Positions 9,550 to 40,209 of a DNA stretch of 48,645 nt are shown piece after piece. A program made the translations under genes and the position numbers. The stretch's first letter is position 1. The number at the start of each line of letters is the position of its first letter. The stretch covers positions 1 to 48,645 of IMG/VR virus record IMGVR_UViG_3300046723_000152; one strand, given 5' to 3'. This stretch comes from a virus. The notes below the pieces were generated by a model. The model was not told the origin of the DNA, ran no database searches, and saw nothing but the letters and a program-made list of their open reading frames with translations.

Positions 9550-9822
9550 ATGAGCACCGAAAAAACCTGCGGCACATGCCGATTCAGCGAAGGAGAGGAT
9601 CACCGAGACGCTCCGGACGATCTGCCTGATGGATATTTCGTCTGCACGTTGATCAAGCATGAACAGGTCGCGCCCTATCGGAGTAAAGACCGAGCGGAAT
9701 TTACTGGCCTCGGCGCTTTCGTGACCGATGCCAGCGGCTATTTCGCGGCACTTTGCGTAGAAGCCGATTTCGGCTGCAACAAGTGGCAACCGAAAATAGA
9801 CCCAGTTCCGGGACAAAACTAG
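9550..9822 (+). CDS. Small cysteine-rich protein, possible metal binder
   Basis: The 90-residue protein has CGTCRF near the N-terminus and further cysteines (FVCTL, ALCVEADFGC) that could bind zinc or an iron-sulphur cluster. The gene ends in TAG at 9820-9822, evidence that amber is normally a stop in this genome. It lies between the DUF4224 gene and the integrase, with only five bases to the integrase ATG. Function unknown. Confidence 0.6.
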   Translation: MSTEKTCGTCRFSEGEDHRDAPDDLPDGYFVCTLIKHEQVAPYRSKDRAEFTGLGAFVTDASGYFAALCVEADFGCNKWQPKIDPVPGQN

Positions 9823-9827
9823 CACAG

Positions 9828-10913
9828 ATGGGACGCCGCAGAAAAGACGGTAATCCCCTCGGCCTCGAGCCGCGCGTCTACGCGCACCATGGCCAGTTCA
9901 TCTATCGGCACCGCGACGGCACGGCCGAGCAGCTCGGCAAGGACGTCGCTCGCGCGAACGCGCGCGCCAAGATCTACAACGATCCGGATCATCGCTTCGG
10001 CACCCTCGGCTATTTCCTCGATCTCTACATCGCCGAGGCTGAGGCTGGAAGACTCCTCCGGAAGAAGAAGCCACGCACGATCGCCGACTACAAGGTGCAC
10101 GCGCCTTTCCTGAAATCGGTGTTCGAGCAGCTGCTCCCGACCGACCTGGTGCGACAGCCGGAGCTGCTCGCGGAATACCGCGATCGTCGCAAGGCCAAGG
10201 TCCGCGCGAATCGCGAGCTCTCTCTCCTGTCCGCGATGTATGCATGGCTCATCGAGAAAGGCTACTCCCCGGGCCTCAATGTGAATCCAGTGGGCAACGT
10301 CGCGCGCAATCCTGAGAAGCCGAAGGAGCGCTATGTGGAAGATGCTGACGCCGGCGCCGTTGCTGCGATCGCGCTCCGATCCGTGTGCATGGCCATGCGC
10401 CTGGTCTATATCACGCTGCAGCGCCCGGCTGACATTCTCGCTCTCTCGCCTCAGTCACTCACAACGAAGACCGTCGGCGGGGTCGCAAAGCGCGTGCTCT
10501 CCGTGACACAAGGAAAGACAGGACGCACAGTCAATATCGAGCTGACGGACGAGCTCGAGGAAACGCTCTATATGCTGTCTCCCGATCGCGAGCCCGGGAA
10601 GATGAAGATCTCGGAATCGGTGACGAAGCTCGTAAAGACCTTCGTGCACACCTCCGACGGATCAAGGTATTCGGATGACGGAATGCGCGCGATGCTGCGG
10701 CGCTATTGCTTGAAGTGCGGAGTCTCGACCTTTGGGCTGATGGATCTCCGTGCGAAGGGCGCGACGGATATGTATCTCAACGGTATCCCGCTCGAGCGCA
10801 TCCAGATGCTCATGGGCCACAAGTCGGTTGTGACGACGGAGATCTATATCAAGCGGCTCCTGGCGCTCGTGCGGATCGCCCAGCCGAACCGGGTTAAAAC
10901 CGGGTTCGCGTGA
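9828..10913 (+). CDS. int: Tyrosine recombinase (phage integrase)
   Basis: The 361-residue protein has an N-terminal arm/SAM-like DNA-binding half and a C-terminal catalytic half. Visible catalytic residues are R199 (LQRPADIL), K230 (QGKTGR), R308 (DLRAKGATDMY), H331 (MGHKSVVTT) and the nucleophile Y340 (TEIYIK). The His usually three residues before the second Arg is Met here, a known kind of variation. The start at ATG 9828 gives a normal N-terminus (MGRRRKDG). It should integrate the phage at the tRNA-Asn core found 130 bases downstream. An imperfect inverted repeat overlaps its 3' end (10886-10909). Confidence 0.95.
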   Translation: MGRRRKDGNPLGLEPRVYAHHGQFIYRHRDGTAEQLGKDVARANARAKIYNDPDHRFGTLGYFLDLYIAEAEAGRLLRKKKPRTIADYKVHAPFLKSVFEQLLPTDLVRQPELLAEYRDRRKAKVRANRELSLLSAMYAWLIEKGYSPGLNVNPVGNVARNPEKPKERYVEDADAGAVAAIALRSVCMAMRLVYITLQRPADILALSPQSLTTKTVGGVAKRVLSVTQGKTGRTVNIELTDELEETLYMLSPDREPGKMKISESVTKLVKTFVHTSDGSRYSDDGMRAMLRRYCLKCGVSTFGLMDLRAKGATDMYLNGIPLERIQMLMGHKSVVTTEIYIKRLLALVRIAQPNRVKTGFA

Positions 10914-11045: not shown

Positions 11046-11090
11046 CTGTTAATCCGCAGGTCCCAGGTTCGAGCCCTGGTCGGGGAGCCA
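11046..11090 (+). other. attP core: 3' half of tRNA-Asn(GUU)
   Basis: From CTGTTAA (anticodon loop with GTT) onward, the 45 bases read as the 3' half of a tRNA-Asn. They comprise the 3' anticodon strand TCCGC, a variable loop, a T arm CCAGG-TTCGAGC-CCTGG, an acceptor strand ending TCGGGGA, a G discriminator and CCA. The bases before the loop do not pair with the anticodon stem, so no complete tRNA is present. This is the standard signature of a phage that integrates at the anticodon loop and rebuilds the 3' end of the host tRNA. With the integrase beside it and phage genes on both sides, it is best read as attP. The host tRNA-Asn should begin TCCCCGA. Confidence 0.85.
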
Positions 11091-11113
11091 AAAACAACGA
11101 GTTGGAGAGGAGG

Positions 11114-11562: not shown

Positions 11563-11862
11563 TTACTGTTTCGGCAAATAAATCCCGAAGAGCTTCACTA
11601 TGCTTTCGGTGACCTGGCCAGTCTCGAGCAGCTTCTTCGCCCGCACCTTCACGTTGAAGAGCTCCCAGGTCGCCGGGTGCATGCGCCGATTGTCCTGGCC
11701 GTCCGATTCCCAGTTCTGCCAGCTCTTGAGCGCCGAGTGCACGAGCTCGCCCGCTTGCGTTTGCGTGAGGCCGGCAGCCTCGCGCGCGCGCTGGATCTCG
11801 GCCGGTTTCGGATTCGCGCTGAAGCCGCGATTGGTCTGGCTTCGGTTGGGATGGTTGCTCAT
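11563..11862 (-). CDS. XRE-type helix-turn-helix regulator
   Basis: The 99-residue product starts at ATG 11862, with AGAGGG upstream on the minus strand. Its core, AEIQRAREAAGLTQTQAGEL, is a Cro/CI-type helix-turn-helix, followed by SWQNWE, typical of XRE regulators, and PATWELFNVKV. It lies at the end of the leftward unit that begins at the promoter near 13140, where a palindromic operator lies between the -35 and -10 boxes. It is therefore a candidate repressor of its own unit; this link is inferred. Confidence 0.75.
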   Translation of the reverse strand: MSNHPNRSQTNRGFSANPKPAEIQRAREAAGLTQTQAGELVHSALKSWQNWESDGQDNRRMHPATWELFNVKVRAKKLLETGQVTESIVKLFGIYLPKQ

Positions 11863-11939
11863 GGTCCGCCCTCTTCTGGTTGCGATCGTTTGACGATCTG
11901 GCGCACGTGCGCTCGGTCGATAGAGAATAACATTCGTCC

Positions 11940-12224
11940 TCATGATGTTTCCCGCCAAGGCGCAAGCGCGCGCTCGAGCTCATCCAGATCGACATCCAGC
12001 TCGCCGGCGGCCGATCGAGGCGCCCTCGCCTTCTGCGGCCACACGGATTCGAAGATCACGGTAAGCGGGATCCGCTTCCGCTGCTGTGTGTCCTTCAGGT
12101 GCACCTCGAGCGAATCTGGTAGGCCGCGCTCAGGCTCCGCCGGCAGCAGCGTGACATTGCCCAAGCGGCCGTTGATGACGATCGAGGTTTCGCGTCGGAC
12201 GGGTGAATCGAGTTTCGTGGTCAT
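11940..12224 (-). CDS. Hypothetical protein, 94 aa
   Basis: ATG at 12224 has GGAGG six bases upstream on the minus strand, better than the TTG further out. The product has a beta-rich first half (SIVINGRLGNVTLLPAE) and an acidic C-terminal half (ELDVDLDELERAL). It could be a small DNA mimic or regulator, but no family is recognised. It lies between the SprT-like and XRE genes and is probably co-transcribed with them. Confidence 0.55.
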   Translation of the reverse strand: MTTKLDSPVRRETSIVINGRLGNVTLLPAEPERGLPDSLEVHLKDTQQRKRIPLTVIFESVWPQKARAPRSAAGELDVDLDELERALAPWRETS

Positions 12225-12262
12225 GAAGTCCTCCAACTGCCCCAGAACCCCGAGGCGCGGGA

Positions 12263-12302: not shown

Positions 12303-12977
12303 TCAATGCGTCCCGGCCGCGGCGATCTCGGCCTTCGAGAATTCGCGCGCGAACGGTGTATTGCAGTCGTTGCAGGTCGCACGGAACTCATCGCGCGAAA
12401 CGCGGGCGATCACACCGCAGCCGCAGACGAACTTGCGAAGGCGCGAGCCCGAGCCGACGCCGCGTGATTTGCCGCCCTTCGCGCCGACTCCTGCGCCGCA
12501 GCCGCGCAGCTTGATCTGGAGCGGCGTGCCGTTCGGATTGATGCCACCGAACGGAGTCGGGCACCCGTCGGTCGGCTGCGGAAGCGCGGCGATCGCTTCG
12601 CGGATGTCGGAGGAGAAGCACGCGAGGGAATATTTGGTGCCAGCCGCGCGCACGAACTGCAGGCCAAGGCGCTCGCACGCTTCCTGCCAGCCCTTGCCGT
12701 GGCCCTTACCCATTCCGGCGAGCACATGACCGAGTTCGTGCAGCGTTGTGCCTGCGACTTGAACCGGAGAGTCCTCGCCGAAAGCGCAAATCTCGGCGAA
12801 GGCATGCTCGTGACCGTTTTTCCAGCAGCCGAAATAGGTGACGCCGCGCGTGGCCTTGGATCCGGCGCCGTAGACCAGCTTCGCATCGAGGGCGGCGGCG
12901 CGCTCCTCTGCGGTTAAACGCTGAACGGCGATCTGACGGACGGCTTGGATGAACTGCTCGTGGGTGAAGGATTGCAT
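12303..12977 (-). CDS. SprT-like zinc metalloprotease
   Basis: The 224-residue protein has a TTLHELGHVLAG motif with HELGH at 80-84 (metal ligands and catalytic Glu), and a downstream GHGKGWQEAC segment as in SprT/Spartan-like proteases. A C-terminal zinc-ribbon-like group (C185, C187, C202, C205) precedes a final TPFAREF. Eukaryotic Spartan removes DNA-protein crosslinks; phage members are uncharacterised. The start at ATG 12977 has AAGGAG on the minus strand. It is the first protein gene after the promoter and tRNA-like gene at 13033-13140, and could be expressed from the prophage. Confidence 0.75.
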   Translation of the reverse strand: MQSFTHEQFIQAVRQIAVQRLTAEERAAALDAKLVYGAGSKATRGVTYFGCWKNGHEHAFAEICAFGEDSPVQVAGTTLHELGHVLAGMGKGHGKGWQEACERLGLQFVRAAGTKYSLACFSSDIREAIAALPQPTDGCPTPFGGINPNGTPLQIKLRGCGAGVGAKGGKSRGVGSGSRLRKFVCGCGVIARVSRDEFRATCNDCNTPFAREFSKAEIAAAGTH

Positions 12978-13032
12978 CTTCTACTCCTTGGCCCCTGATT
13001 CCCGAGGCGCGGTATTGCGGGGCGCTGCTTTG

Positions 13033-13101
13033 TGGAGGCGGCGGGAGTCGAACCCGCTTGGTCTGGATCTAGAGCCCTACCTGGTTACCGAACCCACCCC
13101 C
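13033..13101 (-). tRNA. Compact tRNA-like gene with CUA loop and tmRNA-like acceptor/T arm
   Basis: On the minus strand a 5' GGGGGTG pairs over seven positions with CGCCTCC, including a G3:U70 wobble and discriminator A. The T arm is perfect (GCGGG-TTCGACT-CCCGC). A 4-bp D stem GGTT/AACC has only a four-base loop. The anticodon loop is CTCTAGA (anticodon CUA, reads UAG) on a weak stem with one A-A mismatch and U-G wobbles, and the variable region is short. G3:U70 with A73 are alanine-identity elements shared by tRNA-Ala and tmRNA, and the acceptor and T arm closely resemble tmRNA 3' ends. CCA is not encoded (the 3' bases are ACA). A near-consensus promoter lies just upstream. It may be an amber suppressor or a tmRNA-domain mimic; a decayed ssrA fragment is the alternative. 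Confidence 0.55.
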
Positions 13102-13106
13102 TACAA

Positions 13107-13136
13107 TTCACACGATACGCTCAATGGGCGTATATG
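13107..13136 (+). promoter_or_regulatory. Possible divergent promoter
   Basis: On the plus strand TTCACA (13107-13112) is followed after 18 bases by TATATG (13131-13136), over the same palindrome as the leftward promoter. It is weaker than the leftward one, but a rightward terminator at 13305-13333 implies rightward transcription here. Confidence 0.4.
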
Positions 13137-13140
13137 TCAA
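13112..13140 (-). promoter_or_regulatory. Sigma70-type promoter for the tRNA-like/SprT/XRE unit
   Basis: On the minus strand TTGACA (13140-13135), a 17-base spacer and TATCGT (13117-13112) make a near-consensus promoter. Transcription should start near 13105, four bases before the 5' end of the tRNA-like gene, and proceed leftward into the SprT-like and XRE genes. Confidence 0.7.
13115..13133. promoter_or_regulatory. Palindromic operator inside the promoter
   Basis: ATACGC (13115-13120) and GCGTAT (13128-13133) form a perfect inverted repeat with a seven-base centre. It occupies most of the -35/-10 spacer of the leftward promoter and overlaps its -10 box. A dimeric repressor bound here would block transcription; the XRE protein at 11563-11862 is a natural candidate. 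Confidence 0.6.
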
Positions 13141-37846: not shown

Positions 37847-38242
37847 TCAGGCGAGTGAGATCGTCAGCGCCCCGGACGCGAGAACCAGCGAGTCGCCCGA
37901 AGCGACAGTCCGCGCCGTAGCGAGCAAACCGTACCAGAGCAGATTCCCAGAACCGCCCTGAAGCACCGTATCCCATATATTGATGCCCGAAACAGAGGCA
38001 GCGGTGGTGAATGAGTAGGTGAGCGCCGACGCATTCGTCACCGAGCCTCCGGGCGACGCGGCGGCACCGAACGCCATCGTCTGGCGCGTGTAGCCGAAGG
38101 TCGTCGCGATCTCCGAGCCAGAGGTGCTGGTCGGTGATCCAAGCGAGAGCCCGATGGCGCGCGTGGTGGGCTGCGTCGCCGCCGCACCGCCGAGCACCCA
38201 GTCGAGCATCAGTTTTTCAGCAAACGCAGAAATTGCAGCCAT
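37847..38242 (-). CDS. Phage tail fibre/virion protein, paralogue of 35427-35825
   Basis: The 131-residue product has AEKLMLDWVLGGAAATQP, IGLSLGSPTSTSGSE, GYTRQTMAFGAAASPGGS and GNLLWYGLL, mirroring the 35427-35825 protein throughout. Duplication of the gene with intervening fibre genes suggests two related attachment points or fibre types on the virion. The TAG of the GT9-like gene lies seven bases before its ATG. Confidence 0.7.
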   Translation of the reverse strand: MAAISAFAEKLMLDWVLGGAAATQPTTRAIGLSLGSPTSTSGSEIATTFGYTRQTMAFGAAASPGGSVTNASALTYSFTTAASVSGINIWDTVLQGGSGNLLWYGLLATARTVASGDSLVLASGALTISLA

Positions 38243-38248
38243 GATCGC

Positions 38249-39361
38249 CTACCCCCGTTGCGTTGATAAGATTTGCTTCACCGTCTCTATCACCTGCTCT
38301 ACAGAGATGTCGCTGATGCAGGCCGCGCCGTTCTTGTCGCGGTTCGGCACGCACGTCGTTCCATCGTCGTGGAGACGGTGGCACGGCCAGCACGGCACTC
38401 GCCCCTGATCGGCGTGCAGCGTGGTGGTGTTCTTCCAGTATTTCGTGATGTTGTCTTCGCTCGCGTGCGAGAGCAGCATCACCTTCGGCATGTCGCGCCT
38501 GGCGACGGCCCACATCGGACCCGTATCGGGGCCAACCACGATGTCGCACGCCTGCGCCTGCACGCACACCCTGCGTATTCCCCAGTTCGGATTGGCTGGA
38601 TCGGCCGAGAGAGCTAGATGCAGCCCCTTCGAAGAGCCGAGATTCTTCTCGACCTCTCCCTGGATAAGACGCGCGTGCTCGAGGTCCTTACCCGGCGCGC
38701 CCATCATAATGACGGGGATGCCAGTTTCCTTGAGCAGCTTGGTGATGATTATGTCGGCCTGCGGATGGACTTTGTCGAGCCTGGTGCCAGTGATAACCCA
38801 CCCGATCACCGGCCCATCCCCTGCGACCTGTCGCTTCGTCTCCTGCGCCTTGGCAACTTCCTCATCGGTGGGAAAGAAGTTTGGATCTATCTCCTCGTAT
38901 GGAACCTCGCAGATGTCGTGCACGATCTCAAGGTAGCTCTTGGCCGACATCTTTCGCCGCATCGAAGCAGGCCACCAGAACGGAGACTGCACTTTGATGA
39001 AGGCGCCAATCGTCTCGCACGAGTGCGAGAGGTTGGCGAAGAATGCGTACTCCTTGGCGCGACTCTGGAACCAGGCCTGCCACGAATGGCCGTCGCCCCA
39101 GTTCGGGTCTCCTGGATCCCGCACACCGAGCTTATTGATGAACGGGTTGTTCTCGAAGACGACGTGCGCAGGCTTGGAGGTCATCACCTCCACATTGCCG
39201 AACCTGCGCTTCAGGCCGGGCAGCACCGACGAAGCGATGATGTTGTCGCCGACTCCGCCCATGCGGCAGATCATCGCCCACCGCGCGACGTCGGACTTCG
39301 CGGCAATCTCAGGCTCTCTGATCTGCTGCGCGAAGTCGGCGGAGACAACATTTACGCTCAA
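38249..39361 (-). CDS. Glycosyltransferase family 9-like protein, 370 aa
   Basis: The start is probably TTG 39361, which overlaps the FkbM-like gene's stop. The product has MGGVGDNIIASSVLPGLKRR (GDxxxA loop of GT9), VIGWVITGTRLDKVHPQAD, VIMMGAPGKDLEHARLIQGE and the C-terminal ACDIVVGPDTGPMWAVA donor-binding motif of ADP-heptose-type transferases. A late cysteine group (VPCWPCHRLHDDGTTC) follows. With the FkbM-like gene it forms a second sugar-modifying pair, inside the fibre block. It ends in TAG. Confidence 0.8.
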   Translation of the reverse strand: MSVNVVSADFAQQIREPEIAAKSDVARWAMICRMGGVGDNIIASSVLPGLKRRFGNVEVMTSKPAHVVFENNPFINKLGVRDPGDPNWGDGHSWQAWFQSRAKEYAFFANLSHSCETIGAFIKVQSPFWWPASMRRKMSAKSYLEIVHDICEVPYEEIDPNFFPTDEEVAKAQETKRQVAGDGPVIGWVITGTRLDKVHPQADIIITKLLKETGIPVIMMGAPGKDLEHARLIQGEVEKNLGSSKGLHLALSADPANPNWGIRRVCVQAQACDIVVGPDTGPMWAVARRDMPKVMLLSHASEDNITKYWKNTTTLHADQGRVPCWPCHRLHDDGTTCVPNRDKNGAACISDISVEQVIETVKQILSTQRG

Positions 39362-40209
39362 TGCAGCGTCTCCGAGAGAAGCTCGACCCTTGGAAGATCG
39401 CACGGCATCTTCTTCTCCTCCGGCAGGCACAGCATGTTGATGCTCACCGTGCTGCCGTAATCATTGATCTCGTTCTTGTTAAAGTTCTGCGGGTTGAAAA
39501 GCGCAGGTAGGTGCCAATATATCGCGTACCCCATGAGGCGAAGCTGCGCAATCAGCGCCGCCTTCTTCTCCTCGCGGTCATTCTCCACATAGAGCACCGG
39601 GCGCAGCCTCTTGATCGTCTGCGCCGCGCCCTTCAGAACGTCGCCCTCCATCCCCTCTACGTCGATCTTGATCAAGTCGCAGCGCACGAAGTTGCAGCCA
39701 TCGAGTGTCTGCACCTGCACCGGTTCTCCGACATCCTTCGCGAGAGAGACGGCGCCGAAATTGCCGGGCGCAGCGTAGTCGATGGGCGGCACATAGGCGA
39801 TTCCAGCCTCCGCTCCGAGCGCCATCCTCTCGGCAATGACATTCCAGATTCCATTGATGGCCAGGTTGCCGCACAGCATCTGGTGGATGATCCGCTGCGG
39901 CTCGAACGCGAAGACGCGACCGGCATTCGTGACGCACTGCGCGAGCGCGAGCGTGTGGCAGCCGATGTTGGCGCCGACCTCGACGACAATGTCCCCGGGC
40001 TTCACATACCCCTGCAGAACCCTGGACTCGTCCTCGGCATACTCACCGTAGCGCTCCAGCGCCCCGCCGAGGTAGAAGTCATGCGGAAAGAATGCCATCA
40101 GTCCGTAGCGGCACTTTCGAATGTGGATCTCGGCGCGAGGCTGTTGTTGTTTCTCTTGCGATGCCGCGCCATCTGCTTTCAGCGAGGCGCTGATTTGAAA
40201 CTCTGACAC
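39358..40209 (-). CDS. FkbM-family methyltransferase
   Basis: The 283-residue product starts at GTG 40209 behind AGGAGA. GDIVVEVGANIGCHTLALA (SAM loop), GRVFAFEPQ and DLIKIDVEGMEGDVLKGA are the diagnostic FkbM motifs. These enzymes usually O-methylate sugars, often on polysaccharides or glycoconjugates. With the downstream GT9-like gene it forms a pair that could decorate fibres or host surface sugars. Confidence 0.85.
   Translation of the reverse strand: MSEFQISASLKADGAASQEKQQQPRAEIHIRKCRYGLMAFFPHDFYLGGALERYGEYAEDESRVLQGYVKPGDIVVEVGANIGCHTLALAQCVTNAGRVFAFEPQRIIHQMLCGNLAINGIWNVIAERMALGAEAGIAYVPPIDYAAPGNFGAVSLAKDVGEPVQVQTLDGCNFVRCDLIKIDVEGMEGDVLKGAAQTIKRLRPVLYVENDREEKKAALIAQLRLMGYAIYWHLPALFNPQNFNKNEINDYGSTVSINMLCLPEEKKMPCDLPRVELLSETLH

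Follow-up and report, generated by a model that had tools for sequence, protein, structure and literature searches.

Compact phage RNAs with alanine-type acceptors and variable anticodon loops, a candidate class of non-canonical tRNAs

The window analyzed here is the whole of an IMG/VR virus record, 48,645 bases long. Its minus strand carries, from 13101 to 13033, a 69-nt tRNA-like RNA that folds as a cloverleaf. The RNA, its parts, and its neighbors are as follows.

13033..13101, minus strand: compact alanine-type tRNA-like RNA, 69 nt, with G1 at 13101 and A73 at 13033 (sequence, covariance model, and covariation in 13 homologues)
13095..13101, minus strand: 5' half of the acceptor stem, GGGGGTG, with G3 at 13099; pairs with 13034-13040
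13083..13094, minus strand: reduced D arm, GGTT-CGGT-AACC, without an 8/9 linker; 4-bp stem, which covaries, and 4-nt loop
13060..13081, minus strand: third (anticodon-like) arm, GGT-A-GGG / TCC-AG-ACC (sequence, covariation, and folding)
13068..13074, minus strand: 7-nt loop CTCTAGA, with the anticodon CUA at 13072-13070 (sequence and loop comparison)
13041..13057, minus strand: perfect T arm, GCGGG-TTCGACT-CCCGC (sequence and covariation)
13034..13040, minus strand: 3' half of the acceptor stem, CGCCTCC, with U70 at 13036; the discriminator A73 is at 13033
13112..13140, minus strand: sigma-70 type promoter TTGACA-17-TATCGT; same layout upstream of the homologues
13115..13133, minus strand: operator-like palindrome ATACGCCCATTGAGCGTAT between -35 and -10, occurring once in the window
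12989..13012, minus strand: leader hairpin element GCGCCTCGGG-AAT-CAGGGGC, immediately before the SprT ribosome-binding site
12303..12977, minus strand: SprT-like protein of 224 aa, encoded by the first gene after the RNA and kept next to it in 8 further phages
11940..12236, minus strand: 98-aa protein with homologues in the L002, L008, and L240 cassettes
11563..11958, minus strand: XRE/HTH protein, candidate cassette repressor, kept across cassettes; HTH_31 match below the cut-off

All of the elements described in an earlier, sequence-only reading of this DNA (a 7-bp acceptor with G3:U70 and A73, a T arm, a D arm, the CTCTAGA loop, and a promoter) are present on the minus strand. G3 (13099) stands opposite U70 (13036) as a wobble within the 7-bp acceptor. 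That reading regarded the anticodon stem as weak; it is not simply so, as a 3-bp helix is followed by a small internal loop or bulge and then by 3 to 6 bp more. Canonical elongator features that are present include the 7-bp acceptor, a 5-bp T stem, and a 7-nt TTCRANN loop, whereas the two-base 8-9 linker is replaced by 0 to 1 nt and the D loop has just 4 to 5 nt. CCA is not encoded in the window RNA or in the cassette members read. The cloverleaf of the window RNA lies 1.3 kcal/mol above its minimum-energy fold; for most homologues, the exceptions being L002 and L009, the cloverleaf either is the minimum-energy fold or exceeds the minimum by no more than about 1.5 kcal/mol. Folded as a single sequence, the window RNA gives a z of -1.47, which is uninformative.

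Neither ARAGORN nor Rfam calls the RNA. ARAGORN made zero tRNA or tmRNA calls in the window, and Rfam's tRNA model gave no match at the gathering score. Its tmRNA model matched at 33.5 bits, below the cut-off of 47, with the whole mRNA-like part deleted in the alignment. A covariance model built from the homologues (R1), with the window copy included in its building, scores that copy at 86.6 bits. Outside the window, too, ARAGORN found few of the compact RNAs. As standard tRNA finders mostly miss these mini-tRNAs, the class is likely under-counted.

The promoter proposed for the RNA is the sole TTGACA-N16-18-TATNNT site in the 48.6-kb window, where 0.01 would be expected. Ten nucleotides separate its -10 box from G1 of the RNA. 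A palindrome lies between -35 and -10 in 10 of 12 cassettes; the other two, L228 and L267, have another promoter. Its center is mostly CA(A/T)TG, and its arms change together (ATACGC..GCGTAT, ACACTCA..TGAGTGT, and ATACACCCA..TGGGTGTAT). In L019 and L020, the SprT promoter also bears a similar palindrome. The XRE protein is the natural candidate for a putative repressor acting at the palindrome.

Related IMG/VR loci were reached via a D-arm pattern and via the neighboring SprT-like and XRE genes, and an architecture pattern added further ones. The alignment set comprises 13 distinct RNAs from 11 phages: the window, L002, L009, L019 (two), L020 (two), L021, L022, L228, L240, L260, and L267. The L008 RNA is identical to the L002 RNA and is counted once with it. 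The 12 distinct homologues other than the window copy come from unrelated IMG/VR phages and lie in a SprT/RadC-XRE cassette or adjoin its genes; the L260 contig stops at the RNA and is linked to the cassette by its palindromic promoter only. The operon order in the window, L002, L008, L009, L021, and L022 is the RNA first, then the SprT-like gene, then small genes including the 98-aa family, and finally XRE, with RadC taking the SprT-like place in L002 and L240. In L019 and L020, tandem RNAs run divergent from SprT and are driven by their own promoter. The SprT-like protein has a relative annotated as sprT-like in MW202512 (47% identity), and searches of Pfam and PHROG with the 98-aa protein gave no match. 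Outside the cassette, the phage genomes have little mutual similarity, which suggests that the cassette moves as one piece. Rather than being tied to one phage type, the RNA is found in a mobile cassette and in a wider set of phages. No relative of the cassette was found among cultivated phages, where the short matches inspected turned out to be either normal tRNAs or ssrA attachment sites, and scans of genome contigs for a host gave no match. The loci of XRE relatives without SprT (L012-L014 and L016-L018) have no such RNA.

Several other elements were seen in these phages. A Mom-family DNA-modification gene (PF25680, 75 bits; L152:11525-12319, minus strand) lies on the same strand downstream of the L020 tandem mini-tRNAs. 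RT-15 RNA (Rfam RF03018, 150-160 bits) occurs at L009:750-932 and L260:587-801, both in mini-tRNA phages, and suggests a reverse transcriptase system nearby. The attP core of the window is the 3' half of a tRNA-Asn(GUU) at about 11046-11092 (plus strand), behind a tyrosine integrase gene (9753-10913), and is unrelated to the mini-tRNA. The leader element, in the form CC-GCGCCTCGGG-N1-7-CAGGGGC, is found in at least 120 IMG/VR phage contigs (L023-L141), mostly before ribosome-binding sites or start codons. It often precedes XRE genes starting M-x-NHP, with several copies per phage (three in L085), and forms a GCCTC/GGGGC hairpin that has no Rfam match. Possibly it is a widespread translational leader or recombination linker.

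Pairwise identity among the 13 RNAs ranges from 52 to 93%, and 97% of the cells in their alignment are paired. Double-sided changes number 50, compared with 15.7 in shuffles (0 of 500 reach 50), and are seen at 13 of 21 pairs. For covariation, shuffles score 0.18 +/- 0.02 and the real alignment 0.52, again a value that none of the 500 reaches, and covariation is present in all arms. When the partner is shifted by one to three columns, pairing falls from 97% to at most 64%. Because the alignment had been fitted to the model, the pair counts are biased in favor of the structure, but the acceptor and T arms align without gaps and required no such fitting. Homologues whose stems do not covary would have spoken against the RNA; the opposite is seen, with strong covariation in the 13. 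These comparisons support the window locus as a genuine RNA gene with predicted alanine identity and its own promoter.

Four acceptor features, G1-C72, G2-C71, G3:U70, and A73, are invariant in all 13 RNAs, as is the GGT of the D loop, while acceptor pairs 4 to 7 vary among GC, CG, UA, UG, and AU forms. Alanyl-tRNA synthetase (AlaRS) uses G3:U70 as its main determinant and does not read the anticodon (PMC11415595). Because G3:U70 and the other fixed elements persist while pairs 4 to 7 change, recognition by AlaRS appears to be under selection. The cassettes of 7 phages found via relatives of the SprT protein all carry an RNA with G3:U70 and A73; no acceptor constraint entered that search, so the identity result is not circular for them, whereas L228, L240, L260, and L267 came from a pattern demanding U70 and are not independent evidence on G3:U70. 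An architecture scan of the whole IMG/VR collection gave at least 119 matches with U70 versus 3 contigs with C70; a GGGG start favors alanine tRNAs generally, so what this U70/C70 control establishes is the alanine type of the compact class and not an absence of compact RNAs with other identities. The predicted charging by AlaRS is well supported by these features.

The anticodons, in turn, vary: CUA and CUG occur in three RNAs each, UAA and UUA in two each, UUC and UUG in one each, and one is ambiguous. None is an alanine anticodon (NGC). The amber specificity that the sequence-only reading had attached to the RNA is thus not a property of the family, with CUA in only 3 of 13. The loop CUCUAGA is found in the window, L021, and one L020 copy; CUCUGGA in L002/L008; GUCUGGA in L240 and L260; CUUAAAA in one L019 copy and one L020 copy; GUUUAGA in L019; UUUUCGA in L022; GUUUGCA in L267; and GCUUACA in L228. 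The L009 loop is ambiguous, being either GUAUGGA (7 nt) or a 6-nt loop. Positions 34 to 36 vary, and around them the 7-nt loop has U33 in 12 of 13 (one C33), A38 in all 13, and a purine at 37 in 11 (two C37). Tandem RNAs of one phage differ in anticodon (UUA and UAA in L019, UAA and CUA in L020), and both of these phages combine a stop reader with a reader of UUA. Among the architecture-scan matches listed, copies within tRNA arrays mostly have UGC, an alanine anticodon, while no stand-alone copy with a confident 7-nt loop does. This pattern fits an alanine body that may have been kept while its anticodon was reassigned; since AlaRS reads the acceptor (G3:U70, A73) and ignores the anticodon, the anticodon would be freely exchangeable.

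Other RNAs were also encountered. Stand-alone mini-tRNAs of the alanine type form a second group in the neighborhood of transposase genes of the IS1595 family (ISXO2-like), several of them convergent and within 50 to 250 bases:

L169:2549-2616, L184:1825-1894, L188:12713-12780, L191:4961-5028, L198:12044-12111, L250:1024-1092, and L257:4719-4786: IS1595-associated mini-tRNAs

The tRNA arrays of phages L165, L174, L195, L199, L212, L229, L236, and L242 include compact tRNA-Ala(UGC) genes whose D arm is 11 nt long; most of these escape ARAGORN, although it calls their neighbors. Compact RNAs at L205:2971-3036 and L220:1914-1980 have a tmRNA-like GGTTTCGAC stretch without an mRNA-like domain. Host ssrA 3' ends are captured at L278:2989-3025 and L281:1745-1779 (Acinetobacter phage BUCT628 and a gut phage), which are likely tmRNA-gene attachment sites.

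Schuntermann et al. (2023; cited in PMC11415595) reportedly described mistranslating bacterial tRNAs in which the acceptor specifies one amino acid and the anticodon another. Compared by description only, those tRNAs have the identity/anticodon mismatch in common with the mini-tRNAs but are host-encoded, whereas the mini-tRNAs are phage-encoded. Closest in working are the bacterial allo-tRNAs of Mukai et al. (2017), as described in PMC7609411, which are also non-canonical; some combine G3:U70 with an anticodon for a stop or a sense codon and insert Ala or Ser at amber codons in E. coli, alanine being inserted by those with G3:U70. The allo-tRNAs split the 12-bp branch 8/4 or 9/3, whereas the mini-tRNAs are 7/5 in 13 of 13, have a tiny D arm without an 8/9 linker, and sit in a putatively repressible phage cassette. 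Phage amber suppressor tRNAs for stop reassignment (for example, PMC10879173) are likewise phage-encoded with CUA but serve recoded genomes (UAG to Gln), while for the mini-tRNAs no recoded genes were found in the window, CUA is not conserved, and the identity is that of alanine. Defense-evading phage tRNAs (PMC10264068) also have diverging anticodon loops but are canonical with matching identity. With the tRNA-like domain of tmRNA, the mini-tRNAs share G3:U70, A73, and the T arm; that domain is alanine-charged, and mini-tRNA charging is predicted. They differ from tmRNA in having no mRNA-like domain or tag open reading frame, in having instead a closed 7-nt hairpin arm and a D stem, and in scoring under the Rfam cut-off. 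They differ from canonical tRNA-Ala in the anticodon (not NGC) and the D arm. The description of the sequence as tmRNA-like is not supported as it stood: with the homologues in view, it is no more tmRNA-like than tRNA-Ala-like. The literature searched, which covered few subscription papers, contained no published description of phage alanine mini-tRNAs. On sequence grounds, they may be a new class of non-canonical phage tRNAs.

In the explanation we favor, to which we give an even chance, the locus would make a compact non-canonical tRNA that is charged by AlaRS, has its anticodon set to a non-alanine codon (UAG here), is repressible, and inserts alanine. Transcription would start 2 to 4 nt upstream of G1, and a repressor, probably the XRE protein from the end of the same operon, would bind the palindrome that lies between -35 and -10 and so shut the promoter. 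Cleavage by RNase P, 3' processing, and CCA addition would yield a mature free RNA, which host AlaRS would load with alanine. EF-Tu would then bind the canonical acceptor-T helix of the charged RNA, and the ribosome would accept alanine at UAG when the RNA is expressed, perhaps to the benefit of the phage. More tentatively, and with the balance somewhat against it, there may be a broad and so far unrecognized class of phage mini alanine tRNAs with anticodons reassigned to stops and other non-alanine codons; these would be switched by repressors and exploit the anticodon blindness of AlaRS to reprogram decoding, for example through stop read-through or by corrupting host or competitor proteins.

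No recoded gene with an internal in-frame TAG was found in the window, where TAG is the stop of 4 of 38 predicted genes. One of these, at 38249-39430, is followed two codons on and in the same frame by the start of a gene at 37847-38242 (window 38242-38251, minus strand), and amber read-through would fuse both; this coding-like extension, the only one behind a TAG-ended gene, is just the following gene, which has a start codon of its own, and the arrangement is likely a coincidence. TAG stops end 10 of 91 genes in the CUA phages versus 26 of 107 in the others (Fisher p = 0.017), a comparison that uses crude gene calls from few, non-independent phages and gives a weak hint in support of the suppressor reading. 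The carrier phages showed no avoidance of the sense codon that their RNA would read (CAG, GAA, or TTA). A CAG reader (L002, L240, L260) would meet about 30 codons per 1,000 in its own phage, as measured for L002, which argues against efficient decoding. As some members would misread common codons, decoding must be weak, time-restricted, or beside the point. Against the favored explanation also stand the lack of conservation of CUA, the body without an 8/9 linker or normal D loop, the two C37, the one C33, the ambiguous L009 loop, and the 1.3 kcal/mol by which another fold of the window copy is lower in energy than the cloverleaf.

The strongest rival, though we rate it as fairly unlikely, is a mimic of the tmRNA or tRNA-Ala acceptor domain that would occupy AlaRS, EF-Tu, or SmpB without ever decoding, either as a competitor of trans-translation or as a drain on alanine charging. 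Conservation is highest in the acceptor, the T arm, and A73, the Rfam tmRNA model can be aligned over its full length (33.5 bits) once its mRNA part is deleted, and anticodon identity drifts freely, with two loops breaking R37. A mimic would not, however, account for tandem copies with unlike anticodons or for a D stem, which the tRNA-like domain of tmRNA lacks. Moreover, the 7-nt loop retains U33 (12 of 13) and A38 (13 of 13) though its other letters change, and because of this the evidence leans to a tRNA. An alanine-inserting amber suppressor and a mimic of the tmRNA tRNA-like domain were the two readings offered from the sequence alone, and they are still the leading pair, minus the amber specificity of the former. 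The RNA is probably real and switchable, and probably bends the genetic code or mimics a tRNA.

Rapid diversification of the loops among related cassettes and within tandem pairs would suit a bait or replacement directed against host anticodon nucleases or other tRNA-attacking defenses, with variable loops drawing or resisting cleavage, and phage tRNAs with altered loops do evade tRNA-targeting defenses (PMC10264068). This role is improbable, as it leaves the invariant G3:U70 unexplained, a replacement tRNA should keep an acceptor identity matched to its anticodon, and a PADLOC search of the cassette gave no match. In the window, L002, L008, L009, L021, and L022, the RNA directly precedes SprT or RadC and shares its strand, which would agree with a processing or regulatory leader at the 5' end of the SprT-XRE operon, at which RNase P/Z cuts control the downstream mRNA; but in L019 and L020 a promoter of their own drives the tandem RNAs in the direction leading away from SprT, and a leader needs no alanine identity element, which makes this quite implausible. 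Slimmer still is the prospect that the RNA supplies alanine to a non-ribosomal transferase (a GNAT-fold protein like Mom could be one): a Mom-family gene follows the L020 tandem RNAs on the same strand, but in that one cassette only, and a donor would not need varied anticodon loops. An inert piece of host ssrA or of a tRNA, picked up by the phage, would account for the tmRNA-like look of the acceptor and T arm, and in other phages (L278, L281) attachment sites do contain the 3' end of ssrA. We consider its chance close to nil: both acceptor halves are present and covary in the homologues, the RNA has its own promoter, and attP is the tRNA-Asn 3' half elsewhere (~11046-11092). An ssrA-fragment origin was rejected on the basis of the RNA's own 5' acceptor half, its covarying homologues, and the separate attP, and no continuous identical match to host ssrA was seen.

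If the mini-tRNAs are not used in decoding, they would be a covarying phage family of mimics of the tRNA-Ala/tmRNA acceptor domain. If they are charged and used, as in the alanine-inserting tRNA that we favor, they would be natural, regulated phage mistranslators built on the G3:U70 identity rule. They would then offer a new reason for phages to carry tRNAs, as well as ready-made minimal tRNA bodies.
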